DNA of 64,000 nucleotides from Bolinopsis microptera (lineage: Eukaryota > Ctenophora > Tentaculata > Lobata > Bolinopsidae), in assembly GCF_026151205.1 (NCBI RefSeq), contig NC_087075.1, positions 2,888,359 to 2,952,358 of the forward strand. The letters are read 5' to 3'. The notes beneath the pieces are model-generated. The model saw only the letters and a list, made by a program, of their open reading frames with translations. It did no database searches and was not told where the DNA came from. Both the position numbers and the translations under genes were made by a program. The stretch's first letter is position 1, and each line of letters starts with the position of its first letter. Positions 793 through 32,400 of this stretch are shown here, in pieces.

Positions 793-3246
793 AGGACCAG
801 TTAACTGAAAAATTTGTAGTCTCCAATTTGGCTAAGATTTAAATCAGCTGTGACAAACTGGTAAAGAATCGTATCGCCGAAAGAACCAACTCTCTAGCGT
901 ACGTGTAACGCGTGTTATTGCAATAATAAGCTGTGGCCTCGTGACGTCACGAAGTCCCTCAGTGCGCGCTGGCATAGCGTAATACGTTGCAAATGTTTAT
1001 CGTTGTCATTAAAACACATGTAACTCACTCAAATTTTAGAATTATGACTATTACCCTAGTTCTCCCAAATCCTTATAGTTTTGGCTATCATCCTAACTAA
1101 AGGAATAGCTGATTGGATGTACAGTGCTCACGTCATGATTTTAAACAGTGATATAGCTTCTTGAACAGTGGCGGGTGAATGTAGGTTAGAAAGTTTCTGC
1201 TATTACAGTTCTTATGTCATATGTGATAATTTCGGATTGTTTTCATTGCTTAATTACACAAGCAGCCAGCAGGGAGACTGTACCGATTATTTTTCCCCAG
1301 TCCATGAAACTCTAACGAATTTAGAAAGGATCTAGATAAGTAGGAGTTTGTTCAATTCCGAGAGCAATTATATTTATAGCATAGCGAAATTTCTAATTTT
1401 AATCCGCATGTGTCAGCCAGTATAGGAGACAAGAAGTCTGGCTACTTTACGGCCGTTCCTCTGGAACCATCAGTAGAAGTAGCTTCTATCAGAACAGTGC
1501 CGTGGGAACAGAATTCCCGCCAAAATACCCGGTCTACCAAATAGTAATACAGATTGGAGTTCGAGTGTATGGTGTGCGGTGTGTTTTGAATTAGACTTGC
1601 GGCTTACCTAGTTGTTATCCTAATTGCATTATCATCGGTACATACTTACTTTGTTACTTTGTTACTTTGTAGGGCTTCATAGAATCCTCTATCGGGCCAT
1701 CGAAAAAGTCGACCCCCCGGACAGTGTAGAAACTGTTTTATCACCACTCCAATCCAGCAAGGAGTTTCCATTCCGACGGTTGTATCCTGGAGCTGGAGGC
1801 TCGTCCGGAAATGACTTCACGAAGTTCGTTAAAGCTGCTTTGAATTGCATAGGATCCTCGATGGTGTGCATATGTGTTGGGATTACATTCCATAATCGAG
1901 GTCCGGTTACTGCAAATGAGTTGTCATGTAGTGCTTGATTACGTTGACTGCTGGACTTAGCTATACTGGGCACAACTGCTTTTTGACCATGTCTGAGAGT
2001 CACCGAGAACTGGATACCAATATCATTAGGGCACTTGCAATGCAGAACTTTCCACATGTTAATGATTAAATATCGTTCTCTTCTTCTTTGCAATGACATC
2101 AGATCTAGGGCCTTTAATCTCTGCCAGTAGTTGAGGTGCATAACATAAATAAAATACTGGTAAGTTTAAATACCAAGTGCAAACGTGTTCAGTCGATCGA
2201 CCCACTGAACAACTATAGAACTTCCAAGACCCTATTATTCTTTGGCCATATATTACGGCACGATCGATTGTTAGATGGTTAAAGTTAAACGACATTTCAC
2301 GTAAAACATTGTCGCCACAGGTTGATCATGGACACTAACAGCTTAATTTGAGATAAATGACTTATGAGTTTCTCTAAAGTTAACTCTAAAGTTGTGCAGT
2401 CCAGTCATTTTTGGACATTTATGGAAATGAACCTGCAAATGTTCAGATACTAACGAAACTTTGCACAGACCTTCCCGAAGGTGTGAATAAACGATTTTCG
2501 TTTGGAGACATTTTTTTGACAGTGGAGAAAACCCAGGAGGGCCACGCCCATATTGACCCAATAACGTAACCGACCCCTTGCTTCTGAAGGTCGTAGAGAC
2601 TTCAAAATAGGCTTAAACGAAGCCGCATATGCATGTTTATATAGGAGTTATTGAGCAACACATGGCCTAAAATCCATACTTTTCGAGAAATTCGCCAAAA
2701 ACCATTTTGGGCGTGGTGCTGAGCCCATTTTCGATAGGATTGTGATAGAGTCTTTAGACAGGGTGCAAAAGAACTGCAATTAGCATATTAACATATGACT
2801 TACGAACAAACATATGCCTTAAAGTGCTTACTTTTTCAGTTATTGGCGAAAAACTGATTTTCGGTTCCAGAAATCATGCAAAACTATGGGTATCTGGTAA
2901 ATTGGGCTATGAAGGCCCTAAAGGTTTTTAAATGTGTGCAAATTGTGCAGAATGGCCATGTTTATATACAACTTATGAAGCAACATGTAGCCTAAATTAC
3001 TTACTTTTCGAGTTATTCGGGGAAAAACATTGTATTATGTCCATTTTCTACCTGTAAAATACAGTCTCACGGGCTCCTCTGCGCGCGCAAGGGACTTCGT
3101 GACGTCATCGCCAAAATAATACAAACGCTATTTACACGCGTTAGAGAGCAGTTAGAGATTTAGGAATTTCGACTCGTTGCTTAGTTTGCTATTTGTCACA
3201 ATCTGTCAAAATATGAGGATAACTTTTTTTTCAGTTAACTGGTCCT
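793..3246. mobile_element. TTAA-target DNA transposon, non-autonomous (element 1)
   Basis: The ends are inverted: AGGACCAGTTAACTG at 793 and its reverse complement ending at 3246, flanked by TTAA at 789-792 and 3247-3250. Inside the ends, further inverted matches occur (GTGACAAA, CTCTCTA.CGCGTGT, GACGTCACGAAGTCCCT), giving an imperfect terminal repeat of about 170 bp. The allele-like second copy at 31233 lacks this DNA and has a single TTAA, so the boundaries are supported by an empty site. TTAA duplication is typical of piggyBac and Kolobok superfamilies; no transposase ORF is present, so the superfamily is not decided. It contains an old LINE fragment at 1620-2160. Confidence 0.85.
1620..2160 (-). 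mobile_element. LINE fragment, C-terminal end of reverse transcriptase ORF
   Basis: A 150-codon open frame at 1689-2141 reads like the C-terminal thumb/tail region of CR1/L2-type LINEs: a segment with WQRLKALDLMSLQRRRERYL, then IINMWKVLHCKCP, and later GPRLWNVIP and FKAALTNFV. This is the usual 'L..L.SL..RR...LI...K' then 'LWN.LP' pattern. The 5' part (endonuclease and RT core) is missing. On the minus strand the frame ends just before a short ACAAAGTA tandem tail, as CR1-like elements often have. It lies inside element 1 and is a dead remnant. Confidence 0.75.
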
Positions 3247-3250
3247 TTAA

Positions 3251-3976
3251 GGGGGCAGGGGGGGGTCTTTTTGAAATTTCTCTCGAAATTGATTTTATAG
3301 TCGTTTTTGATAGAGAGGAGTGATATCTATCTGTTGCTTTTGGTCTCATGGAAAAATATTGTTCCTAGCCGAAGTTATTGCCGGTCAAAGGTCAGCGCTC
3401 ATGTGTAATTGTATTGCGCGAGCGATTTTCAATCGCGCGCCCTGAAAATCGAGTCTAAAAATTTATCTTCTCCTACAGTTTTTGAGCAATCACCTTGAAA
3501 CTTTCAGGATATGTTCAAACGACCATTTAGAAACTTCTGGTCGATCAGAATTTTGAGATAGGCCTTTTAAATTTTTTTATTCAATTTTGAAAATCCCGGA
3601 CCTTGAAAAATCGTCAAAAAACGAGGTCCAAGATTTTCAAAATCGAATTAAAAATTTTCTAAGGCCTATCTCAAAATTCTGATCGACCAGAAGTTTCTAA
3701 ATGGTCCTTAAAACATATCCTGAAAGTTTCAAGGTGATTGCTTAAAAAATGTAGGAGAAGATAGATTTTTAAACTCGATTTTCAGGGCGCGCGATTGAAA
3801 ATCGCTCGCGCAATACAATTACACATGAGCGCTGACCTTTGACCGGCAATAACTTCGGCTAGGAACAATATTTTTCCATGGGACCAAAAGCAGCAGATAG
3901 ATATCACTCCCCTCTAGCAAAAACAACTATAAAATCAATTTCGAGAGAAATTTCAAAAAGACCCCCCCCTGCCCCC
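3251..3976. mobile_element. Fold-back TTAA element (element 2)
   Basis: Almost the whole 726 bp is one palindrome: the arms run from 3251 to about 3605 and from about 3620 to 3976. The ends read GGGGGCAGGGGGGGTC and its complement. TTAA flanks both sides (3247-3250, shared with element 1, and 3977-3980). Half copies or diverged copies lie at 17403-17800 and 57630-57975. There is no ORF; it is a non-autonomous element that could form a very long hairpin. Confidence 0.85.
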
Positions 3977-3980
3977 TTAA

Positions 3981-4507
3981 GTTGACTAGTTAAGTTAATT
4001 ATGAACTTTGCTTAAATACTTTAAATTAATTAGATATTATCTGGCCGGGTGCAAAGGATAAAGTATTAATTTCCTGTCTAGTAATAATAGATTATAGCAT
4101 TATGATAATATCGAAAATAATTCCAGCTTTAAGTATAATACTTTACATAGTTCACTCTGTGAAACCCAACTTTTAGTGTCCACAAAATGTTTACCGAGGT
4201 AGAGACTGAACAATGTTGAGTCAACATGCTGACTGCTCTAAGTCTATCCTAACAGCTTCAAACCAAAGGCTCAGAAAAAACCGAGGCTTGGGTTCAGATT
4301 ATCTGTCTTTCTCTGAGCTAAATGTACAGTATTTGTCTTACTACAGTTATACACGTTTTACATGCTCACTTTACGTACATGACGTATCAGGCATCTATAG
4401 CCATATAATATATATACACTATACAATTTACATTGTATAGTGTATAATGTATAATGTTTATAGTTCTAACTGCCAAGTCTAATTTATTCGATAAGATTTA
4501 AGATTTG
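3981..4507. repeat. Right part of duplicated segment (copy A)
   Basis: Matches 31240-31767 almost base for base, including the AT-rich inverted GTATA stretch near 4400-4460. Identity stops at the sequence AAGATTTAA/GAAA near 4507, where a different repeat begins in this copy. A 75-codon frame occurs identically in both copies (4213-4440 and 31474-31701) but shows no family resemblance and is not called a gene. Confidence 0.85.
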
Positions 4508-6200
4508 AAATTGTTTGCAACATTTGGCTTGATAATTGAAAAACCTTTCCCAAAGTTTTCAAGTTCATTGGTTAAATATGGATAAGTTCATGACCATTTC
4601 AATCTCAATCGGATACGTGATCCAGCACTCAGTCAGTGATCTCGTTCACTGGTTAATGGCCTGTTTGGCTCACATTGCACCGATTGATAGGTTGCAGCCT
4701 GTTATGGGCGGATATGTCAACTTCCAGAATGTATTCACTGGGGCTCTACTAGAACCGGATGATGAAGTGGGTGGAGAGGATACGGCTTTTTCTGAAAGGG
4801 TCACGATCTGGTGCGCCATCAGTTCGCCCACAGAACCATCGGACAACATCTTGGAACACACTGGCGGCTAGGGAAGTCCTCCTGACCCTACACGTGTGAC
4901 TTCTTCCTGTGGGGGTGGGTGAAGACCAAACTCTATAAGAGATATCTATAACTGCAAACATTCACCAGCTAAAGCACCACCTGACGACATCATCCATAAT
5001 ATGGACCCAGCGTTTGTACGAACGCTTGTCGGGTGTGAAGAAGCGGTGCTTTGCCTCAAAGGGTGATTGCGCTGGGGGACGACAATTTGAACATCTTAAT
5101 TGAAATTATTGAATTTGTTTTTTGTGTTGGGAATTTTATTAGTGATTACATTTATTGATTTATCTTAAAATGTGTGTTTTCCTTTCTAGCAAAGTCATAT
5201 CGGTATCCATCAAAGCTACTGAACATCATTAATGCACGCTAACGCCTTACTCTTGATCAGATTGGGTGACGAGAATCCCTAATTGAGTGCAAATATCACT
5301 GGACTGTGTGCTAGCGGATACATATCCGTTGGATTTAAATTGGTTCATAACTCAGCCATATTTTAACCAATGAACCTTGAAACTTTTGCGAAAAGTTTTT
5401 CAATTATTCAAGCCGAATGTGTGCAAAAAATTTTGAGTTCTTAGCTTAATGCGTTCTCATTTTTGAAGACAATAGTGGAAAAGAGGGCAGTGTCACGCCA
5501 CGCCCACTGTAATTGGGCGGGCTTACGAACTTTCAGGAAATCTAAGTTTGACCCATATCTATAATCTCTGAAATTTTGGTGCAATTTGGGACGAATTACG
5601 TGAGTTATTAAGAGGTTGCGTGTGGTAGTCACTTATGGGCCCACCTGTATAATAATGCAAGTGAAATGTTTCAGTTGGTTCAGTGTACGAGATCGGTCAT
5701 GTAATTAATGAGTCAGTTAATAATGATGTAATTAATGTGGGCACAGCGCGCAGCGACATGGCAGTAGCTCGTAAATGAACACGATAAATTAGATAATAAT
5801 ATATTAAATTAAAATTAAATTAAATAAATTAAATACGCGCATGCATGAACGACTTAAGCAATGAAAAACTTTAGACGGAATAATAGTTATCGCGCGTTCA
5901 TACAAGTGACATAAAGGGTTTGTTTTTCTTTTGGGGCACTTTGGACCAGACGTCCTGTTTAACAAGAATCACGATGTTGTAATCTTCTTGTAAATATACC
6001 TCGATCGACAATCCAATCATACATGAGACGGAACAGGAGGAACTCGTAAAACTAAAAGGCGTTCAGAATTCTCGTTTGAGTGCGTAACTCACACTTAAAT
6101 AGTTAAGCATAATCTAATCGAATTGCAAGCATACATTGAACGGCAAGGAATACATTATATCTGTTAAGGAAAGTAACCAAACCGTTCGAAATTGCTCTTT
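4508..6200. other. Non-coding repeat-rich stretch
   Basis: No supported gene. Short ORFs at 4536-4871 overlap on both strands and resemble no family I know. The part 5335-5600 is inverted relative to 7262-7550 (shared CACGCCAC.CCCACTGTAATT and TCAGGAAATCTAAGTTTGA), so this stretch looks like one arm of an old inverted-repeat element. 4505-4640 is also related, in direct orientation, to 7440-7600. Confidence 0.6.
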
Positions 6201-7852: not shown

Positions 7853-7947
7853 ATATATGGACACGTTCATTGAAGTTTGAGGAAATTGGTAAATTTCTAA
7901 AACAGCGTTTTTGACGATAGTGGTTTAATTTTAACATATATTAATCT

Positions 7948-9035
7948 AGCGTGTTCATAAGTTCTGAACATTAGCCACGTGACCCATACTCCCATATGCA
8001 CTGCTCAAAAATAAAATGTATTGCTTTTAGGCACTATTATGTAAAAAATGTCACATTTTTGTGACATTGTTTACCATAGCTGCCCAATTAGCATTTTTTG
8101 GTCTTAGATATAGTAGATTAGGTGAATCTAACAATTATGATACAATGTAGGCCTAAAGGGCAGTGATCGAACGGCTTTAAGGCAACATTTCGTAAACTTT
8201 GTCACACTCAGAATACGAGACCTCTTTTCTACTGTGAGGTGTCCATAAAACCCTTTCAACTCATTATTTGATAGTTCTTCTGCTAATCATAGCCCTAAAA
8301 TATGTTGTTTTGAAAAGTTAACTTGAAATACATGCACTTGGCTATTGGGAAATGATGTAAATTCTGTCACATTATATGGAATTTGAAATTCTGGGTGAAT
8401 TTCCGAAATCATTTATATCTGATTTTGGTTTGGAAGGCGGGAAAACTCTATATAATGAGGACGATACACGGATACAGTTGATTGAAGTATAGCCCGGCAG
8501 TTGATGTAAACATCGTCACAAAATGATACAAAATCGTAAATGGACACGTTCATGTTGAAGTTTAAGGGTATTGGTAAACCAAAAAAAATAGCGTGTTCAG
8601 AAGTTCTGTACATTAGCCACGTGACCCATACTTCCATATACACGGCTCATGTCAGAAATACAATTTATTGTTTTTAGGCACTATAATGTAAAAAATGTCA
8701 CATTTTTGTGACTGTGTTAACCATAGCTGCCCAATTAGCATTTTTTGGTTTAAAATATAGTAGATTAGGTCATTCTAACAATTATGATACAACATTTGGC
8801 TAAAGGGCAGGGATCGAACGGTTTTAAGGCAATATTCCGTAAACTTTGTCACACTCAGAATACGATACCTCTTTTCTACTGTGAGGTGTCCTCAAAACCC
8901 TTTCAACTCATTATTTGATGGTTTTTCTACTAATCATAGCCCTAAAATATGTTGTTTTGAAAAGTTAGCAAATACATGCACTTATTGGGAAATGATGTAA
9001 ATTCTGTCACATTATATGGAATTTAAAATTTTGGG
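7948..9035. repeat. Tandem duplication of about 645 bp (left arm)
   Basis: Landmarks recur with an offset of 640-647: AGCGTGTTCA.AAGTTCTG at 7948 and 8590, the facing motif pair at 8041/8061 and 8688/8708, and single motifs 8192/8839 and 8357/8997. The second unit is cut by the LINE at 9036 and resumes at 14853-14978, which matches 8396-8520. Confidence 0.85.
9028..9035. repeat. Target-site duplication, left
   Basis: ATTTTGGG immediately before the poly-T (minus-strand poly-A) of the LINE; the same eight bases occur at 14853-14860 immediately after its 5' end. Confidence 0.85.
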
Positions 9036-9265
9036 TTTTTTTTTTTTTTTTAAGAGAGGCTGGGCCAAGATAGCCCACGAGAGGATAGCATTGAGATGCT
9101 CTGCCTACCTCTGGGGTGTGGCAACCTTGGGGAAGGTTGCCGGTGAAATCAGAGTGATTGGTGGAGGATGGTGTAAGATGTTATAATATGAGTCAAAATG
9201 ATACGCTTAATGCCAGCTGGGTTTGGAAAAGTAAAACGAGACGAGACAGCATATGAAATAATACT

Positions 9266-12200
9266 TTAAGTCACCCCGGTCTGATCCAGCTCCTCCGGCA
9301 CAATTAAGCGTTTGGTGCGGTTTGCGAAATTGACAATTGTGGTGATGTGTTGGTTGTCGAATATGTCATTGACAGAGAGGTAGTAGTCCTGGAAATATTG
9401 ACCTCTAATTTGGGCAATAGCCGGACACTGTCCAAGAAAGTGTGAGACAGTTTCCTCTCCGTCGCCGCACATAGGACAAGCACTGGTGTTTGATTTGCAA
9501 ATGGTGTGAAGGTGTTTGTTTAAGCCGCAGTGACCCGTGATGAGGTGAACTGCAGTTCTGTAATCTTGTCTGTTTTTGCTGAGTGTAGTGTTGAGGTTTT
9601 TGATGATTTTGGCATGCTTGTGGCCGAGTGTCAGTTTGGTGTGTCTGGGACCGTCAGTTAACCAAGTTTCCTGATTCAGTCTGTTGACTTTGTTGTCGAT
9701 TTGACGCTTGATGTAGGATTGAGGAATTGGACACTTCAAAGTGGATTCACTGATTGTACCAAGCTTGGCCAGCTCATCTGCTTTTTCGTTCCCCCACAAT
9801 CCGATGTGTGCTGCAATCCATCGTATCTCTAGCGTGTTGTTGGATCCGAGTGCATTAAGAGAGTCGTAACAGTCTCTTGTAGTTCTACTCCGCGTTGAAA
9901 GCGCAGAGATAGCTTGTATAGATGAGAGACTGTCAGACCATATGATGATGTGTGTGTTGGTATAGGTAGAGAGATATTTGCAAGCTTCAATGATGGCGGT
10001 GAGCTCTGTTTGGTAAACAGTGCAATAATCAGGGAGCTTGAATGATCTTTCTTCAAGGGTGGTGTTATTGTTGTCAGTTGTGATGATATAGCCAGCCCCG
10101 CATCCTGAGTCAGTGAGTGACCCGTCAGTGTAGCAGGTGATCGTTTCACTGGTAATGTTGTCAATGGTGTTTTGAAGTGAATTTCTATATTCAGTGTTAT
10201 CGGCTCCAGGAGTTGTGACGGTGAAGTGCCGTCCCAGCATCATGGTTGGTGTTGTTAGGTCTCTCGTTGCTCTAGGTGGGATAATGAGGTCTGCCATGAA
10301 TTGTTTGTTGATAGTGGTATGATTTTTGATAGTTCCCTTCCTGAAGGCGATAGTTTCAAGAGTGAGGCTGCCATAAGCTTGTAGCCTGGCCGCACCCTTT
10401 GCTGCTTCGCCTTGCAGGAACAGTATGATGTCAGAAGTGTCGGTGAGGTGATTCAATGCGATAAAAGGTGTGCTTGGCATGGCACCAGACATCATTCTGA
10501 GTGCCAATGCCTGCACACGTTTGAGTTTCTTCGCGTTATAGTCCGTTTGAGTGGCCCTGATCCATATACTACAGCAGTAGGATAGGATTGGACGGATGAC
10601 AGCCGTGTACATCCATTTGCATGTTTTAGGGCTCATACCCCATGTGGGGCCGACAGCTCTTCGACATTGCATGAGGGATGCCGTGGCTTTTTTGGTGGTG
10701 TTGATGATATGTTCATTGAAATTGAGTTTGCTGTCCAAGGTGACTCCTAGAAATTTAGCAGACTTGGAAAGACCTATAATGTTGTTGCCAACTGTTATAG
10801 GTCTTAGAGTCCACTTACTATTCCAGGTAAACATGACTATCTGAGTTTTAAGGGCGCTAATAGATAGCTCTTTGGTTCTGCACCAATTTTCTATCGTTTT
10901 AATAGTTTTGCATGTTCGGTCCCAGATGATGTCTAAATCATCCCCTTCCGCTAGAGACAACAGATCATCCGCAAAGGCTTGCAGGTAACCCGGGATGTCT
11001 TTTGCGGTAAAGGAAAGGAGATCGTCGACTACCAGATTCCAGAGAAAAGGAGAGAGAATGCCTCCTTGGGGGCAACCTCGCCTGATCCGTACCCTTCTCG
11101 ACTTATCCTTATGATTTAGTGTGATGAATCGATTGGTTACCATGTTGATGATCCACTGTGCAGTAGCCAAGTCCACTTTCGTAGCCTTGACTGCTTCAGA
11201 GATAGCCTTGAACGAGACATTGTCGAAGGCGCCCTCTATATCTAGAAAGACACCTAGGACATATCCTTTCTTGGCTATTCTGCGCTCAATGGTGTGAGTA
11301 ACTTTATGAAGTGCCGCTTCTGTGGAGCAGCCCTTCTTAAAGCCGAATTGTCGTTTGTTGATATCATTAGCTATGTTGAGGTCATGTTGCATATGCCATA
11401 AGATCACTTTCTCCTGCAACTTTAACATCACGGGCGAAAGAGTGATCGTTCGAAATGACTTAGCTTTGTTGTAGTCGGTTTTTCCAGGCTTAGGGAGAAA
11501 GATTCCAAGAGAGTCCCTCCACAAAGTTGGGATGTGTTGCGTTTCATGGTTTTTTGTCATAATGTTTTTTGTTATGTCTTTGATATGAGCCCAGGCTTTC
11601 TGGAATATGATAGGTTTTAGAGTGTCAGGTCCTGCAGCCTTCAAGGGATCGAAGGATAGGAGAGCCTTTTCGATTCTTTCAGGGCTGTAGATTTTGTCTA
11701 GTAAGTCTGTGGAGATCGGTAAGGGGCAGAGAGGCGGAACTGGCGGATCAGTAACACTCTCCTTGAAGTGGGTTTGTGTCATGACCTCCAGTGTCTCCTC
11801 TGCGTTTTTGGTGAGTTCGCCATTTGGTTTATAAACGGCTTCAAGTTTGTTATTGGTGTCAGTACAGGTTTTCAGAATCTTGTTCATCCTTCCAGATTCC
11901 TTAACCGATTCTGTGTCTGCGCAGAATTTCCGCCACGCATTGCGCTGGGAGTTGGACAGGATCTTGTTGTATTGCTTGTTGCTTTCTCTAAGAGCGAGCC
12001 ACGAAGCATCAGTTTTGATTCGACGAGCTGTGATGAGTTTGCGTCTTATACCCCTCTGTGCTTCCTCAACTTCTCGAGTTAGCCAGGGTGGTTTTCTGAC
12101 AGCGCTGGAGATGTAAGTAATGGGACATGCCTCCTCGAAGGCAGCTCGGAGAGTAGTATTAATGGTGTTAACTTTGTGATCAATGTCGTGTGGTGTGTTA

Positions 12201-13111
12201 ACGCAGGTGTTGTGGAGATCATTGTTGTTGTAAAGAATCTCGTCAAATTTCGCCCAGTCAGTGTTCTTGACTAGGCGTATTTGTCTTGGTTCTTTTTTGG
12301 GACCAGAAGTAATGTCGAACATGATATATCTGTGATCGGAGTTTGAGTAAAGATCACTAACGTGCCAGTTACTGATCAGTTCAGCCCCCAGTTGGTTGGT
12401 AATAGTGAGGTCAATGATGGAATTATGACCTCGTGAGTTGAGGAATGTTGGAGTTGAACCTTTGTTGGAACAGGAGAGCCCTAGCGACGAGAGGAAATCA
12501 AGTAGTTCCTCTCCTCTTCTATTGCACAACTTGTTACCCCAAAGAGTGTGTTGGGAGTTGGTGTCAGAGCCTATTATGAGTGGTATTTTGTTGTCTATAG
12601 CGTATTTGGCTAGAGGTGTGGTTTCGTGGGATGGAGCTGGTCCATTAATATCCATGTACGAAGCTGCCAGAATTACTTCTGTCGAGCTAAGTTGAATCTT
12701 AATAGCAACTTGATCCGGGGTTGTGAATTGCGATAGTTCCCAACTTTTTTCAGCTAGGTTTTTGTGTATTACTATGGCGGCACGGGGCCTAATGTCCCCA
12801 ACTTTGTAGTAATACTCGGTTAGTTCTTTGCTTATTGGTGGAATTAGGTGTTTGTTATTAGTGTATGGTTCAGTCGCTAGTACAATAGGATTTTTCCTGC
12901 CATGAGTGTTCACCAGCAGGGTTTTCCAAGCGTTGTACTTGCGTTTAAGGTTGATTTGAGTAACAGAGTAATATTCATGATGAGTTTTACCTGTTTTTTT
13001 GGTATTGGGGACGTGGCGTGCAGCACCTGCAGTTACCCTCACCGGACGGGTACTAGGACCTTTTGGATTGGGCACTGTGTCGGGGGGCTGGTCGAAGTCG
13101 AATAGCAGCAA
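9266..13111 (-). CDS. LINE ORF2: endonuclease-reverse transcriptase-RNase H polyprotein
   Basis: 1281 codons, uninterrupted. It copies the element RNA at a nicked genomic target. Approximate residues: apurinic/apyrimidinic-type endonuclease 50-270, with TEPY, GSDTN near 181 and SNSDH near 256 as the expected catalytic motifs; reverse transcriptase about 460-780, with GFKKGCST near 587, RRGCPQGGILSPFLWN, and the catalytic FADD at about 712; RNase H about 990-1115, with CYTDGS and AHIGLWGNEKADELA; then a cysteine-histidine knuckle CPMCGDGEETVSHFLGQC near 1210. All core motifs are present, so the protein could be active. The start ATG at 13111 lies inside ORF1 (59-base overlap), suggesting reinitiation or frameshifting for translation. 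Short ORFs on the other strand are shadows. Confidence 0.93.
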   Translation of the reverse strand: MLLFDFDQPPDTVPNPKGPSTRPVRVTAGAARHVPNTKKTGKTHHEYYSVTQINLKRKYNAWKTLLVNTHGRKNPIVLATEPYTNNKHLIPPISKELTEYYYKVGDIRPRAAIVIHKNLAEKSWELSQFTTPDQVAIKIQLSSTEVILAASYMDINGPAPSHETTPLAKYAIDNKIPLIIGSDTNSQHTLWGNKLCNRRGEELLDFLSSLGLSCSNKGSTPTFLNSRGHNSIIDLTITNQLGAELISNWHVSDLYSNSDHRYIMFDITSGPKKEPRQIRLVKNTDWAKFDEILYNNNDLHNTCVNTPHDIDHKVNTINTTLRAAFEEACPITYISSAVRKPPWLTREVEEAQRGIRRKLITARRIKTDASWLALRESNKQYNKILSNSQRNAWRKFCADTESVKESGRMNKILKTCTDTNNKLEAVYKPNGELTKNAEETLEVMTQTHFKESVTDPPVPPLCPLPISTDLLDKIYSPERIEKALLSFDPLKAAGPDTLKPIIFQKAWAHIKDITKNIMTKNHETQHIPTLWRDSLGIFLPKPGKTDYNKAKSFRTITLSPVMLKLQEKVILWHMQHDLNIANDINKRQFGFKKGCSTEAALHKVTHTIERRIAKKGYVLGVFLDIEGAFDNVSFKAISEAVKATKVDLATAQWIINMVTNRFITLNHKDKSRRVRIRRGCPQGGILSPFLWNLVVDDLLSFTAKDIPGYLQAFADDLLSLAEGDDLDIIWDRTCKTIKTIENWCRTKELSISALKTQIVMFTWNSKWTLRPITVGNNIIGLSKSAKFLGVTLDSKLNFNEHIINTTKKATASLMQCRRAVGPTWGMSPKTCKWMYTAVIRPILSYCCSIWIRATQTDYNAKKLKRVQALALRMMSGAMPSTPFIALNHLTDTSDIILFLQGEAAKGAARLQAYGSLTLETIAFRKGTIKNHTTINKQFMADLIIPPRATRDLTTPTMMLGRHFTVTTPGADNTEYRNSLQNTIDNITSETITCYTDGSLTDSGCGAGYIITTDNNNTTLEERSFKLPDYCTVYQTELTAIIEACKYLSTYTNTHIIIWSDSLSSIQAISALSTRSRTTRDCYDSLNALGSNNTLEIRWIAAHIGLWGNEKADELAKLGTISESTLKCPIPQSYIKRQIDNKVNRLNQETWLTDGPRHTKLTLGHKHAKIIKNLNTTLSKNRQDYRTAVHLITGHCGLNKHLHTICKSNTSACPMCGDGEETVSHFLGQCPAIAQIRGQYFQDYYLSVNDIFDNQHITTIVNFANRTKRLIVPEELDQTGVT

Positions 13112-14144
13112 CCAGCGTCTCCGGGAGAAAACTGTGTTTCTCTAAGAATGTCTCACCCGAAGGTGAGACATCCACCCAGATCCGCTGCCTCTGTTTAAAC
13201 TCCGTCGACGGGCCCCCACCTTCATGTAGCTGCACAGCCACTGCCTCCCAGATGTTGGTGATCTGTATCCTATTCCACGGTGGGGTAGGATTGATAGAGA
13301 ATGTTGTTATCAGTATATGGGAGATTATGTGCGCGTTCCCGCGCAATGTTGTTGAAATAGGTCCTTTAATCACAATAATGTCTGATGTTAAACGTAAATC
13401 AGGAAACCTGATCCGCTCTGCGAAAATCAATGTCTCATCTGTGTTACGCAGTTGATACATCTCATTACCGCTATCAGTCATGATTGTTTTGTAAATCCGG
13501 AGTTGTAGTATAGGGGTAATAGTGGTGGATTCCTTGGTGGTTGCTGAACGAGCACAGCCCCGATTGAAACCAGCACCCTCGCAACAAGGCTGTGAAGCCT
13601 GTGCAAGTGTGCCAATCCCACACGAGGCCGGCTCAGTCCCGCCTCCTCCACTGGTAATCCGGTGTTGTAGTGTAGGTGTAGTAGTGGTGGATTCCTTGGT
13701 GGTTGCTGAACGAGCACAGCCCCGATAGGAACCAGCACCATCGCAGCAAGGCTGTGAAGCCTGCGCAAGTGTGCCAATCCCACACGAGGCCGGCTCAGTC
13801 CCGCCTCCTCCACTGGTAATCCGGTGTTGTAGTGTAGGTGTAGTAGTGGTGGATTCCTTGGTGGTTGCTGAACGAGCACAGCCCCGATAGGAACCAGCAC
13901 CATCGCAGCAAGGCTGTGAAGCCTGCGCAAGTGTGCCAATCCCACACGAGGCCAGCTCAGTCCAGCCTCCTCCACTGGTAATCCGGTGTTGTAGTCCAAG
14001 TGTATTAGTGAGAGTTTTAACACTTTCTGCGTATCGTAGAAAGATGTTTGTTTTACTACCGCGACAGTAATGATATGCCGCTAATAAGGTAAAGGTAAAA
14101 CGGGTGCTAATGATCGGTATTAAGGGCCCGACCTTGAAGTACAC
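13053..14144 (-). CDS. LINE ORF1 frame (putative RNA-binding protein, start uncertain)
   Basis: The open frame is 363 codons but its first half (roughly residues 55-215) is a translation of three 162-bp tandem units rich in Gly, Ser, Thr and Cys. An ATG after the repeats, at 13481, would give a 143-residue protein beginning MTDSGNEMYQL, which is as likely a true start. The C-terminal part has no zinc knuckle I can recognise and ends in a basic tail. Position just upstream of ORF2 and the overlap argue for ORF1, whose usual role is RNA binding and chaperoning. No sequence motif proves this. Confidence 0.6.
   Translation of the reverse strand: MYFKVGPLIPIISTRFTFTLLAAYHYCRGSKTNIFLRYAESVKTLTNTLGLQHRITSGGGWTELASCGIGTLAQASQPCCDGAGSYRGCARSATTKESTTTTPTLQHRITSGGGGTEPASCGIGTLAQASQPCCDGAGSYRGCARSATTKESTTTTPTLQHRITSGGGGTEPASCGIGTLAQASQPCCEGAGFNRGCARSATTKESTTITPILQLRIYKTIMTDSGNEMYQLRNTDETLIFAERIRFPDLRLTSDIIVIKGPISTTLRGNAHIISHILITTFSINPTPPWNRIQITNIWEAVAVQLHEGGGPSTEFKQRQRIWVDVSPSGETFLEKHSFLPETLVAAIRLRPAPRHSAQSKRS
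13499..13984 (-). repeat. Three 162-bp tandem units in the LINE 5' region
   Basis: Units start at 13499, 13661 and 13823, with the remainder of the pattern at 13985. They differ at few bases and are open in more than one frame because 162 is a multiple of three. Their place, just before the shorter ORF1 start, resembles the promoter monomers of some mammalian L1 elements. Confidence 0.85.
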
Positions 14145-14852
14145 ACCCTGAACTTCTAAAACCCTATATGCTCAGGTGTGAGTGAAGGCTGTGAGAGCTC
14201 CAAAAGAAAAAGGGATCAAATGAGGTAAAGGAAGACGGTTGGCACGTGCGACCTACGTTCAGTTTTGCTCAGCTGAACAGTACAGCTTAGTCTCGGCTGG
14301 TCTTGTGATACCGATTAAGCCCCCTTACCACGGCAAGGTCATTTGCTTTGGATAAAGCACCATTACCAATCACTATAGGTGAGAGAAACAGGATAGGATT
14401 GGGTCCTGGGCAGTAACTCCAGAGCAAATGGGCAGAGTCATAGGTGGTGCTCTAGTGCTCAGGATTGACTCTGCCGCTGTACTTTAAATCAATAAGTACC
14501 TACACGTGTGACAGACGCCCCAGCCGACAAGCCCCCTGACGCGATGCATGCGAGCCCAGAACAGAGTGCCTACACCCAGTGGCACGCCATGCTAAGACAA
14601 CGCCGCCAGCTATCGACCCGGATGCTATCCCCACGAGCTACCTAGCGACTTTCGTCGCTTGGGTGCTCAATGTGGACTGCCTCCGTTACGACCACCAGCT
14701 TCGCCACCCAGCCCAGCGGTCCCCTGGTTTCAGCCATCCACCCCAGTCTCAGCACACACCACACCGGGAACCGCCAACCAGCACATCCAGACCCACATGC
14801 CAGGCCTCATCGAAGCTACCTGGTCTTTTGCCCGGAACCAGACAAAAGGGGG

Positions 14853-14860
14853 ATTTTGGG
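14853..14860. repeat. Target-site duplication, right
   Basis: ATTTTGGG, identical to 9028-9035; host repeat sequence resumes directly with TGAATTGCCGAAATC, matching 8397 onward. Confidence 0.85.
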
Positions 14861-15001
14861 TGAATTGCCGAAATCATTTATATCTGATTTTGGTTTGGAA
14901 GGCGGGAAAACTGTATATAAGGACGATGCACGGATAGAGCTGATTCAAGTTAAGGGCAGTTGATGTAAAAATTGTCACAATAATAATAAGGGCAGTTGAT
15001 A

Positions 15002-15670
15002 TGAAAGAAAATCTATCTAACTAATGCAATGGCTGATGTGACGAAATTTACATTTCTTGACCCTATTTTGAAGAAACATGCCTCGATTAGAATTCAATAT
15101 TCTTCCAGGAATTATTAGTAGGTTATTATTCAGCAAATCAGAACTCAAGTTTAACAATTCTGAGTTTAATTTTACTGAGTTACCGAAATGTGACGAAATT
15201 CACTTTTCCTGCCCCAACAGTATAATTTCAATGTGATGAAAAATGGGCATGGGTTTCTATATTTCCTTATCTCTGAATTAATCATTTCAAACTATAATTA
15301 GGACTGTTGATGTGAAAGAACGTGTATCTAAATTTTACAATGACGAATGTGACAAAATTTACATTTCTTGACCCTATTTTGAAGAACCATACCCCGATTA
15401 GAATTCAATATTCTTCCAGGAATTATTAGTAGGTTATTATTCAGCAGATCATCAGAACTCAAGTTTGACAATTCTGAGTTTAATTATACTAAGTTACCGA
15501 AATGTGACGAAATTTACTTTTCCTGCCCCAACAGTATAATTTCAATGTGATGAAAAATGGGCATGGGTTTCTATATTTCTTGTATAAATCCATTCCAACT
15601 ATAATAAGGGCAATTGATATGAAAGAAAATCTATCTAACTAATGCAATGGCTGATGTGACGAAATTTACA
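15002..15670. repeat. Tandem duplication of about 312 bp (right arm)
   Basis: 15002-15300 and 15302-15600 are close copies (ATTCTTCCAGGAATTATTAG, CCTGCCCCAACAGTATAATT in both), and a third unit starts at 15601. Each unit holds two of the GTGAC-N4-TTTAC motifs. Confidence 0.85.
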
Positions 15671-16537
15671 TTTCTTGCCCCTATTTTGAAGAATCATACC
15701 TCAATTAGTATATAATGTTACTTTATTACCATCACTATGTCGATAAATTAGTTATTTTGCCAACACGGAGCAAATAAAGTTATAATATTTTTTGTGACGA
15801 AATTTACAAATTTTTACCCTGTTCAGGTGTTGAAATTTATCCAATGTTAACATATCACTGCCATATAATAATTTATATGACCGGCGTATGGTTGAAATAT
15901 TGTTAATTGATCCATAGTACGTAATATAGGGTGTTCAAGTTGGTACACTAATATTTACTCAATTTCACACATGTTGAGATATCATACAAATTTATGTGAC
16001 TAAATTTACCTATTTCTGCCTTCTGTATTTGTATTTGCGTATAACAATGAAATATGTGAACAATTCCAAACACATTCAGCTCACAAAATAATGCTAGACT
16101 ATTCGGCATTTCTTGTCAGGATGTCATAAACATCCCTCATATAAATTTATTAAATGTGTGACGGAGTTTACATGGTGCTACCATTTAAGAAAAAAAGTCG
16201 CTAAATATGTAGATAATAGTCATATACAGCTATTCTATGAATTGAAAATTCGAAAATTTGGTCAAACACGGCAACAAGGGGTCCATATAAACTCCGTCAC
16301 GTTTTTATAGTGTGACAAAGTTTACAACTCACTGCCGGCCGCATTTAAGCGATATCTTATCGTCTGATAAAGATATCGTTATGCGACAAAGTTTATCTAA
16401 AGGATGAAACGATTATCTTAGGGTTAGAGGGTTTATATAGTTTCATAGTGTGACACATTTTACATCATCGTGCCATTCAGTAGGGTCACTAATATTTACC
16501 AATATCCTCAAACTTCAATGAACGTGTCCCTATACAT

Positions 16538-20909: not shown

Positions 20910-21212
20910 GCTCAATGCCCTTGCTAACCTATTAAGATAGTTAAGTCACAAGTTACAAGTAGGTGGCACAGGAGCAACCTGTTCACACCAAATTGTCAAT
21001 AAAGATGAATGTTATGGTCCTAGGCCCTCTAGGTGACACAGGACAAGTACTGTTCTCAAATTTGAAAGCAAACAACCAAGTTATCTTTGATTTCGAGGTT
21101 GATGATTTATCCTTTATTTATTTTTATTGATTGATTTCAGACTACAATTATATGATAGTCAATAATCTTTGTTGAATATTCTTTTGATATAACATTTGAT
21201 TTATCTCAGATT

Positions 21213-23915
21213 ATGGACCGCTCATTCCTAAGTGTGCTCAAAACCCTGAAAATCGGGCATTCCATCCAACTCCCTCAAGACAACTATGCTGCTCTCAATA
21301 TGTTACTTCCCATGGTGCTGCAAAAAGAACATAGAAAAGTGTCAGAATTGATTAGCAGTAGTCCATATTTTGACATTGATACTGTTTTACCAAAAATAAA
21401 GCGAACTTTACTTCATATGGCTGCAAACATTGGTGCAGCTGAATGTGTTGCAGTTCTCTTGAACGCTGGTGCCAATCCAAATAGGCCAGATAGCAATGGG
21501 GTTGTTCCATTACATTTTGCTGCTCGTAATGGATTTAAAGATTGTTGCAAGCTTCTTTTAAATAAAGGTGCGGATCCAAAAGTACCAGATAACGATGGTT
21601 TAACATCTGTTCATTGGGCAGCTCTAAGTGGCAGAAATGAGCTCCTTGCTGATTTGCTTTCACGGAACATTGAGCTTAATGTACGTGATAAAATGGGTCA
21701 GACAGCTTTGCATTTTGCGGCCATGCATGGACATTATAAAACAGTGGAATATTTAGTTGACAACGGTGCTCAAGTAAATGATGTGAACATTGAAGGGCAT
21801 TCACCTCTCATACTGTCAGCTAAAGAAGGGCACCAACAATGTATAGATCTTTTGCTATCATATGGGGCTAGTCCTTCAGCTAAAAATTCAAATGGTATGT
21901 CAGTGTTACAAATCTTGGTTTCTAATCGGTACCTTGACTGTGTCTATTCTTTGACACAGTCTCACCCTACTCAGTTGTGCAATCTCATTGAGACCCTCAG
22001 AGTTCCTGAAATGATCAACTACAAATATGTAATTGAATGTATCCAGCATATTTGCTGCAAAAAAAGAAGTTTAGTTTTAAAGATTTGGGAGACTCTGGTT
22101 TCTCTAACAATAAATACTGGAAAGGAAGTCATGTCTTCTAATACTGATAAGGCTACTCCAAAAGCTTTTGTCAGTCTTGTGAAAGCCTTGAAACAAATCA
22201 GCATGTTAGACGAAGTTTCTCTCATTGTATCTCACTGCAGCAAATCTAGAACTCACAGTGATTCAAGCACACCAACTACAATGTCCCCTCCAACTACCCC
22301 ATCAGGGTCTAGTTCTTTCACTTTTGGATGTTTCTTTGAAAGCCCTGTGATCATAAATCGACTTGATGATGTTTGGATTATTCTTGAACAGTGGATGGCC
22401 ATGCTTAGTAAAGAAGTCATTGCAAAACGCAGGTCAGATATATCAATTTCTGAGCTGCTAGCTTCAACTGATACCGATACCAAAGCTGGAAATCTGTTCC
22501 TCTGTGACACATTTGATGGTGACTCTAAATCGCTGGATAAAGTCTCAGATAATTTGTGCACAGTCATTGAGGCATATCATCTGTGGTCAAAAGACACCTC
22601 TCTTCACCTTAAATTTGAAGAGTTTGTTACCTCCTATTCTGATGTCTTTAAGGTTTTCCTTGCTCACAACAGCTTTTTCATATTCAACCAACTTAAGTTT
22701 TTCTTGGAATCTCCAAGTTTCATGAGACAGTTCAATGGAATCAGAAAAGTGATTTATCAGAAAGATCTTGCTCTCAGAAAGAAATGGTTTTATGACAATT
22801 TATATGAAGATATTGCTCCGAATACTCACCCTGATGACAGTGCAAAGATCAGAATCCGTCGAGATGACATATTCAACAGCTCGTGTTCAGAGATCTACAA
22901 TGCTAATTTAGACGATTTGAGGAAGAATTTTGTGATTTCATTTCATGGGGACCAAGGTATAGGAGCTGGTGTGAGGCGTGAATGGTTCAATATTCTTACA
23001 AATGAAATGCTAAATGAGGATTATGCACTTTTTACTAATTCGAACGATGGTATGACCTTCCAACCTAGTCATATTTCCGATATTCAAGAAGATCATTTAA
23101 ATTATTTCAGATTTGCAGGGATTATAATGGGGTTATCCTTGTACCACAGCAATGTCATCAATATCCATTTTACAAAATCGTTTTACAAGCATATTCTTGG
23201 GATTCCATCTGATTACACTGATGTTAGGTCCATTGATCCAGGATATGCTAACAGTTTACAATGGTTGCTGGATAATGATATTACAGAGTTTGAAGATGAT
23301 CTGGGACTGACTTTCAGTGAAGATCAGAATGTTCTGGGTGAAGCCAGGGTGGTAGAACTAAAACCAGGAGGTTCCAGTATTCCAGTAGCTGAAAGTAACA
23401 AACAGGAATACGTGGAGTTAGTAACAGAGTATAAAATGACAAGCGCTATCCGGCCCCAGATCAACAGTTTTCTTGATGGATTTCATTCCATAATCCCAGC
23501 CTCACTCGTCGCTATATTCAACGAAAACGAGCTGGAATTACTAATGTGTGGGGTTCCCAACATTGACCCCCACGACTGGGAAACAAACACCACCTACAAC
23601 AACTACGAGGCTGAAGATCAAGTGATCCTCTGGTTCTGGGAGGTTGTCCACGAATTTACCCCTGAGGAGCGCGCACTGCTCTTACAATTCTGCACTGGTA
23701 GCTCCAAGGTGCCTCTGGGAGGGTTTGCTGGTCTGCAGGGATCCGGGGAGGTGATGCCCTTCACCATTAGTAAAACTCATGACCAGAATAAATTACCTAC
23801 TGCCAGCACTTGTTTTAATTTACTGAAACTGCCAAGTTATAAATCGTTCGAAATTGTTAAAAGTAAGTTAAAGATAGCCATTAAGTATGGTTCAGAAGGA
23901 TTTGATTTTGTATGA
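21213..23915 (+). CDS. HACE1: HACE1-type E3 ubiquitin ligase (ankyrin repeats + HECT)
   Basis: 900 codons in one uninterrupted frame, close to the 909 residues of vertebrate HACE1. The N-terminal third has about six ankyrin repeats (residues about 65-265: LLHMAANIGAAECVAVLLNAG, PLHFAARNGF, SVHWAALSGR, ALHFAAMHGH, PLILSAKEGH). A linker with a Ser/Thr/Pro-rich patch follows. The HECT domain occupies about residues 565-900 with the catalytic cysteine in TASTCFNLLKLP at residue 867, the usual spacing of 33 residues from the end. It transfers ubiquitin to targets; vertebrate HACE1 acts on activated Rac1. A 3' splice acceptor ATCTCAG ends at 21209, three bases before the ATG, so the mRNA leader comes from elsewhere. 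No introns interrupt the coding part, unlike vertebrate HACE1. The polyadenylation signal is possibly AATAAA near 24088. Confidence 0.95.
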   Translation: MDRSFLSVLKTLKIGHSIQLPQDNYAALNMLLPMVLQKEHRKVSELISSSPYFDIDTVLPKIKRTLLHMAANIGAAECVAVLLNAGANPNRPDSNGVVPLHFAARNGFKDCCKLLLNKGADPKVPDNDGLTSVHWAALSGRNELLADLLSRNIELNVRDKMGQTALHFAAMHGHYKTVEYLVDNGAQVNDVNIEGHSPLILSAKEGHQQCIDLLLSYGASPSAKNSNGMSVLQILVSNRYLDCVYSLTQSHPTQLCNLIETLRVPEMINYKYVIECIQHICCKKRSLVLKIWETLVSLTINTGKEVMSSNTDKATPKAFVSLVKALKQISMLDEVSLIVSHCSKSRTHSDSSTPTTMSPPTTPSGSSSFTFGCFFESPVIINRLDDVWIILEQWMAMLSKEVIAKRRSDISISELLASTDTDTKAGNLFLCDTFDGDSKSLDKVSDNLCTVIEAYHLWSKDTSLHLKFEEFVTSYSDVFKVFLAHNSFFIFNQLKFFLESPSFMRQFNGIRKVIYQKDLALRKKWFYDNLYEDIAPNTHPDDSAKIRIRRDDIFNSSCSEIYNANLDDLRKNFVISFHGDQGIGAGVRREWFNILTNEMLNEDYALFTNSNDGMTFQPSHISDIQEDHLNYFRFAGIIMGLSLYHSNVINIHFTKSFYKHILGIPSDYTDVRSIDPGYANSLQWLLDNDITEFEDDLGLTFSEDQNVLGEARVVELKPGGSSIPVAESNKQEYVELVTEYKMTSAIRPQINSFLDGFHSIIPASLVAIFNENELELLMCGVPNIDPHDWETNTTYNNYEAEDQVILWFWEVVHEFTPEERALLLQFCTGSSKVPLGGFAGLQGSGEVMPFTISKTHDQNKLPTASTCFNLLKLPSYKSFEIVKSKLKIAIKYGSEGFDFV

Positions 23916-29400: not shown

Positions 29401-32400
29401 TGTAGGTATCTTTTTTATTGTCCTCACAGCTTTGCAGACGATTTTCATAGTATAGCTGTCTAGTGGTGTTTATAACTGCCTCGGCATGCTTAACAGCTTT
29501 TTTATAGTCTAATTTTGAATCTGCAGTTTTAAGTCTCCTGTTGTCACGTTCAGCTTTTCTTCGTTTCCTTCTGGCAGTTTGACATTTTGTGTCCACCCAC
29601 TTGCTTTGATCAGGATTAATGCTAAAACAGATAAGGGGAGCATGTTTATCAAGAACAGTACTCAATCATCTCTAAGTTATCTCTTATTTGGTTATTTTCT
29701 ATGACTGGAGCTGGATTATAATAATACTATAGAGCTTCTGTGCCGGTATGCACCAGTGTCCAGTTTATGCCAGTATGCACCAGTATTTGCCGGTATTTGC
29801 CGGTATGCACCAGTATTTGCCGGTATGCACCAGTATTTGCCGGTATTTGCCGGTATGCACCAGTTTATGCCAGTATGCACCAGTATTTGCCGGTATTTGC
29901 CGGTATGCACCAGTTTATGCCAGTATTTGCCGGTATGCACCAGTTTATGCCAGTATTTGCCGGTATGCACCAGTTTATGCCAGTATGCGCCAGTGTGCGC
30001 TGGTATTTGCCAGTATTTGCCGGTATGCACCAGTTTATGCCAGTATGCGCCAGTGTGCGCTGGTATTTGCCAGTATTTGCCGGTATGCACCAGTTTATGC
30101 CAGTATGTGCCAGTATGAATACTCACTTTTCCCCAATGACTGGACCTGGATAGTAATGATATTACAAAGTACAGCTGCATATGACTGGACACGATTCTCA
30201 GAACTGGTAGAGCAATGTAACCGCTATTTCCCTAATATGGTATAATTACTAGCGAGATCTCTCTCTCTGCAGGTTATGTAAGATGCTTTAATTGCACCTG
30301 CTTTTCTTTACAATATAATGCATCTGCTCTGGAGATATTGACGAAAAAAATCAGAAGATAACGTCAAATTTTATGATATCATTGGCAAATAAGTTCTAAC
30401 TTCTTAAGTTGGAAGAGCGCAAAATAGAACTATAGAAGGTTAGTTGAGCTACATAACACAGTTACATAACACAGTTACATAACACAGTTACATAACACAG
30501 TTACATAACACAGTTACATAACACAGTTATCTGTGGAATTGTGTAAAACTGCATTCTATTGGCCAAGTATTCTTGTCACTATCAAGTTTTAGTAATTCAG
30601 AGGATTCTCTCAAGTTTAGAACATTTTGCCGGTTGATGGTAGGCGAAATCTCATTCTGTCAAATGGGATCCAGGAATAAGGTCCTGGAGCTAAAACGGGC
30701 TGTATGTTGGACCAGATGAATCTAATGTTGGCCACAATTTCTATAGGTTCATAAGTAAGGAATGTGCCAAATCCTGTTCAGCTTTTTATCATTTTCCGGG
30801 CTACTATCTCTTCGCACTGTTTCGTAAACCCGAAAAACAGAATTTTCCGCACAACATTTATTTCAGCTTTGAAGTCACTTCGCATGATTTTTAATTCCGA
30901 CATTGTAATTAAGTTCAGCTAATTCTTCCTTACAGTCTGAAAAGAGGCGTTGAAAAGGTCTGATTACCAGGATAGAATATTAGTGCGTTATAATGTACTG
31001 TGTATACTGTGCATGCTGTGTATAGTGTACACCGTGTATAGTGTACACAGTGTACACAGTGTACACAGTGTATAGTGTATACTGTGTATAGTGTATTATG
31101 TACACACATAGTCCTCTTACTAACAGTGTATATTCTGGCTACTGATGACAAATGTACATTGTACACTTTACAGTTAAAGTAATTCAACACTGTATACATA
31201 TTACACACAGAGGGCACATTAGCCACTTATTATTAAATTAAGTTGACTAGTTAAGTTAATTATGAACTTTGCTTAAATACTTTAGATTAATTAGATATTA
31301 TCTGGCCGGGTGCAAAGGATAAAGTATTAATTTCCTGTCTAGTAATAATAGATTATAGCATTATAATATTAACGAAAATAACTCCAGCTTTAAGTATAAT
31401 ACTTTACATAGTTCACTCTGTGAAACCCAACTTTTAGTGTCCACAAAATGTTTACCGAGGTAGAGACTGAACAATGTTGAGTCAACATGCTGACTGCTCT
31501 AAGTCTATCCTAACAGCTTCAAACCAAAGGCTCAGAAAAAACCGAGGCTTGGGTTCAGATTATCTGTCTTTCTCTGAGCTAAATGTACAGTATTTGTCTT
31601 ACTACAGTTATACACGTTTTACATGCTCACTTTACGTACATGACGTATCAGGCATCTATAGCCATATAATATATATACACTATACAATTTACATTGTATA
31701 GTGTATAATGTATAATGTTTATAGTTCTAACTGCCAAGTCTAATTTATTCGATAAGATTTAAGATTTAAAAAATAGGACAGTGCACATTATTGTGTACAG
31801 GTTATAAGCACACACCGTGAGCACTACATTCAGTGTATGACGTAATGTACTCAAATACGCACTACACTGATCCTTATATATTATTATATATAATATACTG
31901 TTATACATAATATTACATACGCTAATCTAACTGCGTATAATGCGATTACACTATTAATTGCACGAGGCGCAGCCGAGTGGAAATTGATACAATAATCGCA
32001 CGAGGCGAAGCCGAGTTCGATTATTGCAGTTATTTCACGAGGCGCAGCCGAGTGCAATAACTGGTGTAATCGTATTATACATGCAGTTAGATTCACGTAT
32101 AACTCCACGCCTCTGATGTTATAACCAGTGTAATTAGTTTATAATCGCACCGACTTTGTTGTTATACAGGGCGGGCCTCAAAAGTCTACCCATCCTTATC
32201 TCTTAAAATTGTAACAGCTCGCTGAGATCTCACTAATTATTTTATTTCAGAATGGAAAAGCGCCATAACTTACGTTCTGATTAATATTTTTGATTCAAAT
32301 TTTTAGAGAATGTCAATCATAATTAGACACAACTTCGTGCTAAGTTTTGTGTGATTCTGAGCTTGTCTGACAAAGTTAGCTCCTGAGTGTGCTAGCTTTA

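Follow-up and report, generated by a model that had tools for sequence, protein, structure and literature searches.

The stretch of Bolinopsis microptera DNA analysed here (the window, 64,000 nucleotides, C4:2888359-2952358, where C4 is contig NC_087075.1) contains a DNA transposon that is lined from end to end with copies of a short motif, GTGAC-N4-TTTAC, and that has been split by a long interspersed nuclear element (LINE; Table 1). With the LINE and the LINE's target copy set aside, simple length arithmetic leaves an element of 2846 bp. An original prediction, made from the letters of the window, had recognized the outer ends as inverted, and repeats of 24 bp each indeed start at 7859 and 16529, the mirroring between the two ends being limited to the first 20-40 bp. 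The left arm is a tandem duplication of two units that are 90% identical, the second of which opens, at 8542, with a further copy of the end sequence; this arrangement, like the longer form of the motif described below, had gone unnoticed in the prediction. A second left unit adjoins every one of the 40 left ends that were scored, though in one case this unit is partial. Copies of the element vary in length and in their number of motif sites. Since the longest stop-to-stop stretch is only 70-80 amino acids in 14 of the 15 copies in which both ends were found (it reaches 150 in a copy of 4260 bp), we call the element non-autonomous. Scans of the window with Rfam (at the gathering threshold) and for tRNAs gave no matches.

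Table 1. Coordinates of the transposon, its parts and the inserted LINE within the window
Feature	Position	Strand	Remarks
Whole non-autonomous DNA transposon	7859..16529	.	ends, and 99% identity to another copy either side of the LINE
Left target-site duplication, ATAT	7855..7858	.	
Right target-site duplication, CTAT	16530..16533	.	one mismatch against the left ATAT
Left terminal inverted repeat, GGACACGTTCATTGAAGTTTGAGG	7859..7882	+	
Right terminal inverted repeat	16506..16529	-	
Left unit 1	7859..8541	+	motif sites 8041(-), 8061(+), 8192(-), 8357(-), 8506(-)
Internal copy of the end sequence, GGACACGTTCATGTTGAAGTTTAAGG	8542..8567	+	opens the second left unit
Left unit 2, first part	8542..9036	+	motif sites 8688(-), 8708(+, one mismatch), 8839(-), 8997(-)
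LINE splitting the element	9037..14852	-	target copies ATTTTGGGT at 9028-9036 and 14853-14861
Left unit 2, last part	14862..14982	+	motif site 14965(-)
311-bp tandem units, 2.4 copies	14983..15708	+	sites 15038, 15190 (one mismatch), 15349, 15504, 15656 (all +)
Right arm	15709..16529	+	sites 15794, 15996, 16158, 16312, 16450 (+); one-mismatch site 16287(-)

Inverted ends, a 4-bp target duplication, an empty site and high copy number identify the element as a transposon of the cut-and-paste type with terminal inverted repeats. The left terminal repeat has 974 matches in the genome (264.65 Mb in 232 contigs) at two mismatches or fewer, while its control has none. When the left 673 bp and the right 762 bp were used as queries, 40 copies were scored for each, out of 907 and 1196 first-look candidates, respectively, all at 97-100% identity. 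The mean difference among 14 full copies of 2.4-3.2 kb is 1.6%, a figure that comes from the best-scoring copies and so gauges the recent spread of window-like copies rather than the age of the whole family; older copies exist, such as the loci L069 (about 92% identical in its longest block) and L079 (86-88%). Of the 974 ends, 243 exact ones were listed; they form 89 pairs of neighbours, for which the median length is 2980 bp, and 24 of these pairs are longer than 3.3 kb. Among the 15 copies for which both ends are available, the 4-bp duplication is perfect in 14, whereas the flanks match in none at 3, 5 or 8 bp and in one at 6 bp. The four bases flanking 60 ends are ATAT (35), TTAT (10), ATAA (7), TTAA (4), TTGT (2), ATAG (1) and ACAA (1), that is, mostly WTAW, and at 50 of the 60 the next base outward is T. 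The imperfect pair is found at C4:9133308 (TTAT/ATAT), for which a paralogous site that is 99% identical lacks the element and has a single TTAT, thus demonstrating the insertion and fitting the 4-bp length. A second empty paralogue, at 88% identity, agrees with insertion; a third candidate was set aside, its identity (73%) being too poor for use. Two further copies 125 kb apart, C11:19902443 and C11:20027867, share 40 identical bases of left flank, which suggests a segmental duplication.

All 18 exact motif sites that had been predicted are present in the window, every one of them between 8041 and 16463, compared with a mean of 0.13 and a maximum of two in 100 shuffles; 2000 random first-order copies of the element gave 0, against the 18 observed. 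The predicted positions are correct apart from 8507, which should read 8506, and near copies do occur at 8708, 15190 and 16287 (one mismatch each) and at 16383 (two). The motif is also over-represented genome-wide, as the prediction required: there are 3784 occurrences versus 777 of the reversed pattern, about fivefold for ten fixed bases. The ten outer bases had been seen to be kept while the four between them vary, but the motif is longer. We extended it from 20 exact sites of one copy, keeping 12 units whose 130-base flanks show less than 45% similarity (mostly about 30%). As these units were picked by the ten core bases, those bases are necessarily invariant among them; beyond the picking bases, a T precedes the core in 12 of 12 units, and the two positions that begin nine bases after it are C in 12 and in 11 of the 12. 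The N4 columns carry 0.65 bits of information and the flanks 0.35. The resulting motif, TGTGAC-N4-TTTAC-N9-CC, spans 26 bases, has 13 that are fixed, and is found 2604 times in the genome as opposed to 17 times for its reversed control (about 153-fold). Within the window the CC is complete at 15 of 18 sites, the other three having CA, CA and CG. The three conserved blocks lie about one helical turn apart, as would be expected of a protein that reads one face of the DNA.

One may also consider that the motif has no function at all and merely came along as a single ancestral unit was tandemly duplicated within the element, as happens in elements that bear satellites. Internal duplication is real here, both in the left units and in the 311-bp units. 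Nonetheless, the 12 units with unlike flanks still agree in the T and the CC, outside the bases by which they were picked, and in pooled sets of copies the core changes less than the rest (see below). Nor is the whole repeat unit conserved, as it would be in a satellite array; the motif does not sit in a single satellite unit with all positions equally conserved, the finding that the prediction had named as fatal to it. We therefore regard this explanation as largely refuted and very improbable.

The sites are also ordered. In a copy of 3158 bp there are 22 of them along the whole element (20 exact and two with one changed base), and the TTTAC side faces the nearer end at eight of ten left sites and 12 of 12 right sites; the exceptions belong to closely spaced inverted pairs, one pair per left unit, and a further, weak site in the right arm faces inward. 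The same outward direction is seen in 11 of the 12 units with unlike flanks (p 0.003). A single flip of orientation, which had been proposed, thus describes the main series well but not the sites at 8061, 8708 and 16287, which are opposed to their neighbours. Spacing is near-even, as had been noted, with a wider range than the 138-165 bp first given for most intervals: 12 intervals taken as independent (that is, omitting repeats from duplicated units, the 73-bp gap where the two halves meet, and the inverted partners that lie close to other sites) have a mean of 157 bp, a range of 138-202 bp and a coefficient of variation of 0.109, and none of 100,000 random sets was as even. Such a mean and such evenness could indicate a chromatin function, in which sites placed at about one nucleosome repeat would position a linker-binding protein that has no direct role in transposition. 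We consider this hardly credible: the intervals spread too widely, the direction of the sites is left unexplained, and animal nucleosome repeats are generally longer than 157 bp. The link to nucleosomes drawn in the prediction comes down to a numerical resemblance.

A host DNA-binding protein is a more serious candidate. A transcription or chromatin factor, for example a multi-finger C2H2 protein, could bind the sites for the sake of expression, nuclear location or open chromatin, while the transposase reads the terminal repeats alone. The motif is spread over the whole element rather than clustered at its ends, an arrangement not typical of sites for a transposase; the genome has at least one long poly-C2H2 open reading frame (ORF); and selective conservation would fit any useful protein. 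In contrast, a host factor should have binding places elsewhere, whereas among the matches listed, which cover contig C1 up to 15.2 Mb, the places with the extended motif belong with a single exception to this element family, as judged by spacers and clustering; likewise, a generic host factor would not need the sites to face outward in both arms. This explanation appears possible though rather unlikely.

Differences between copies bear on the same question. Changes at the 11 core bases are two to ten times rarer than in the rest of the element, both when copies are pooled and in the single copy that shows it best. That copy, L069, was chosen by its ends and not by its motif, and has one of 176 core bases changed versus 117 of 1925 elsewhere (p 0.0003; N4, 4/64). 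When six loci chosen by their ends are pooled, the core has 7/506 changes and the rest 216/5179 (p 0.0005), with 1/90 in the CC. Compared with a reference copy, the 14 full copies show 25/2717 changes in the core, 18/988 in N4 and 547/27767 in the rest (p 0.00002), and counting each alignment column once leaves 7/220 variable columns in the core versus 201/2858 others (p 0.014; N4, 5/80). The low core rate of L079 (2/109) is biased, as this locus was picked by its motif sites, and the case for constraint rests on L069 and the end-chosen sets.

We consider it probable that the element is a non-autonomous cut-and-paste transposon moved in trans by a DDE-type transposase, and that its whole length is an array of cooperatively bound sites. 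Such a transposase would be encoded elsewhere in the genome, or have been lost recently; it, or a partner protein that it needs, would bind cooperatively to the roughly 20 directional sites, about 157 bp apart and mostly with the TTTAC side towards the nearer end. Many sites facing each end could provide specificity and help in pairing the ends, and copies that keep their sites would be the copies that spread, amounting to selection among copies for mobility. The prediction of a cut-and-paste element with many protein-binding sites is supported by the genomic copies, the target duplications, the empty paralogous site and the lower rate of core change, the last of which fits putative binding sites for a protein required for mobility, most likely the trans-acting transposase. 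We infer both the identity of the bound protein with the transposase and the cooperative pairing of the ends.

Several observations weigh against this explanation. In the six pooled loci the low rate is not confined to the core, since N4 (4/184, p 0.25) and N9 (10/412) also fall below the rest. In L072 the core has changed more than the rest (2/88 versus 11/1095), and three further copies taken singly gave p values above 0.05 (0.053, 0.18 and 0.15). Copies share ancestry, so that pooled p values overstate independence, and sites were defined on one copy that has most of them intact, a choice that biases the core rate slightly downwards; two degenerate sites were included to reduce this bias. 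Finally, the autonomous relative with a transposase that the prediction called for did not emerge: nine long copies sampled held LINE sequence, more of the element, or unassigned sequence, and of the 26 piggyBac and 18 Mutator/Kolobok profile matches none fell between the ends of the 89 pairs listed or closer than 26 kb to any end in the list (243 of 974 ends; other transposase families were not searched). Given that coverage of ends and families, this is weak evidence that such a relative is absent. The 18 genomic matches to PF20700 (Mutator/Kolobok) come no closer than 36 kb to an end among those listed, and L080, which came from that profile search, has neither the ends nor the motif in 2.5 kb. 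Ends with the same first 12 bases but other sequence behind them number eight genome-wide, below the 20 of the control.

Among the nine long copies, L069 contains LINE sequence 85% identical to the LINE of the window, and L070, L072 and L074 contain LINE sequence according to Pfam; L071 gave just a below-cut-off reverse-transcriptase zinc match, and L081 has an ORF that on visual inspection resembles reverse transcriptase. Most of L075 consists of the element itself, L073 is partly element with no ORF of 100 amino acids in the unassigned remainder, and L082 contains unassigned sequence that another locus shares. At L070 (295-3996; C3:5195000-5199000) one ORF has a 2OG-Fe(II) oxygenase domain, which we take to be AlkB-like, and the next combines a PHD finger with an endonuclease and is LINE-like. 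L072 and L074 share related retroelement sequence with a nearly identical reading frame of 106 amino acids. L079, beside which lies an ORF of 521 amino acids, was rejected as an autonomous relative, since the ORF encodes a C2H2 zinc-finger protein and the alignment ends about 430 bp before it. Its element blocks (906-4575) are 86-88% identical over two long blocks and 92% over a 92-bp end block, with the poly-C2H2 ORF adjoining, and we treat it as a probable truncated copy next to another gene.

As no autonomous partner was found, we leave the element unassigned to any superfamily, and comparison with known groups gives a mixed picture. The Kolobok superfamily, which includes KolobokP and the T2-MITEs of Xenopus, is described as TTAA-specific, with 4-bp target duplications and 5'-RR..YY-3' termini (PMC9587614); the GG..CC ends and 4-bp duplication of our element suggest a possible Kolobok affiliation. 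The target does not agree, TTAA being found at only 4 of 60 ends, and among exact ends genome-wide TTAA precedes 18, compared with 60 for TTAT, 41 for ATAA and 173 for TATAT (274 together; the TATAT count covers ATAT preceded by T). An amplified internal segment has been described for one of the T2-MITEs of Xenopus, apparently Xmix (PMC6004289). This genome does harbour Kolobok elements of the Kol0 type: THAP domains and Mutator-type transposase domains occur in both L076 and L077, and in L076 there is also a P2RX7_C partner, identified by testing the protein. L078, a near-identical copy of L077 and the sole Kol0 copy with definable ends, has TTAA duplications and AGGTGCACACCG ends. The motif is absent from the stretches fetched for L076, L077 and L078, and a search of L076 for terminal inverted repeats gave no convincing ends. 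In L078, repeats of about 180 bp lie on both sides of the transposase gene.

The AT-rich 4-bp duplications reported for Sola2, ATAT among them (PMC3627910), would also fit the element, as its own are AT-rich and 4 bp long, and Sola ends are described as variable (PMC10741241); the conserved TA centre of its targets, on the other hand, is not a feature stated for Sola2 in the portions of these sources at hand. In Galileo, several binding sites for the transposase (THAP) lie within long, internally repetitive inverted repeats, and its authors suggest that many sites give specificity (PMC3688188). Galileo and Foldback elements resemble ours in having multiple sites in repetitive sequence, the binding sites of our element being putative. 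They differ in that three sites are reported for the Galileo-G repeat (PMC3688188), whereas ours has about 20 along the whole element in a mostly consistent direction; their inverted repeats are long, while here only 20-40 bp are mirrored; and the duplication given for the P superfamily is 7-8 bp (PMC5199201), not 4 bp. piggyBac, which is present in the genome, also makes 4-bp duplications, but at TTAA (PMC9587614) and with CC..GG ends (PMC10045372), in contrast to the WTAW targets and GG..CC ends of our element. Internal tandem units are also described for other mobile elements, namely satellite-carrying non-autonomous Helentrons and foldback elements (PMC7492417, PMC4079207). Unlike these, our element has inverted ends, a 4-bp duplication and a 13-base motif kept across otherwise unlike units. 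It is a subterminal-repeat transposon, a known kind although unusually extended, and not a satellite. Titles and abstract openings, which do not exhaust the literature, yielded no element with such a motif or design. Since the TA-centred 4-bp targets are unlike the TTAA of Kolobok and piggyBac, and no other group could be confirmed, one may speculate about an undescribed superfamily whose transposase would assemble along the full length as a directional, near-regular filament on some 20 three-part sites and so synapse the arms; we regard this as a long shot.

Galileo and Foldback elements have raised the question, still open, of why numerous internal binding sites should be present in some transposons. 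With hundreds of end-bearing copies that vary in site number, a sharp 13-base motif, mostly fixed direction and near-regular spacing, this family constitutes a natural experiment on how the number, direction and spacing of sites relate to mobility.

The LINE within the element has an ORF (9266-13141) with endonuclease, reverse transcriptase and RNase H domains, and the sibling element copy at C11:20026367 holds the uninterrupted LINE target site. The upstream part of the LINE includes a 162-bp tandem repeat (13494-14010; 3.2 copies, 95% matches) that lies within an ORF of 372 amino acids. Elsewhere in the window, a single long open frame at 21159-23915 encodes ankyrin repeats and a HECT ubiquitin-ligase domain, and is presumably HACE1-like. 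The segments 77-647 and 30450-31096, 30 kb apart, both contain one set of short tandem units (TACATAACACAGT, followed by TACTGTGTA), which hints at a repeat element that has been duplicated.

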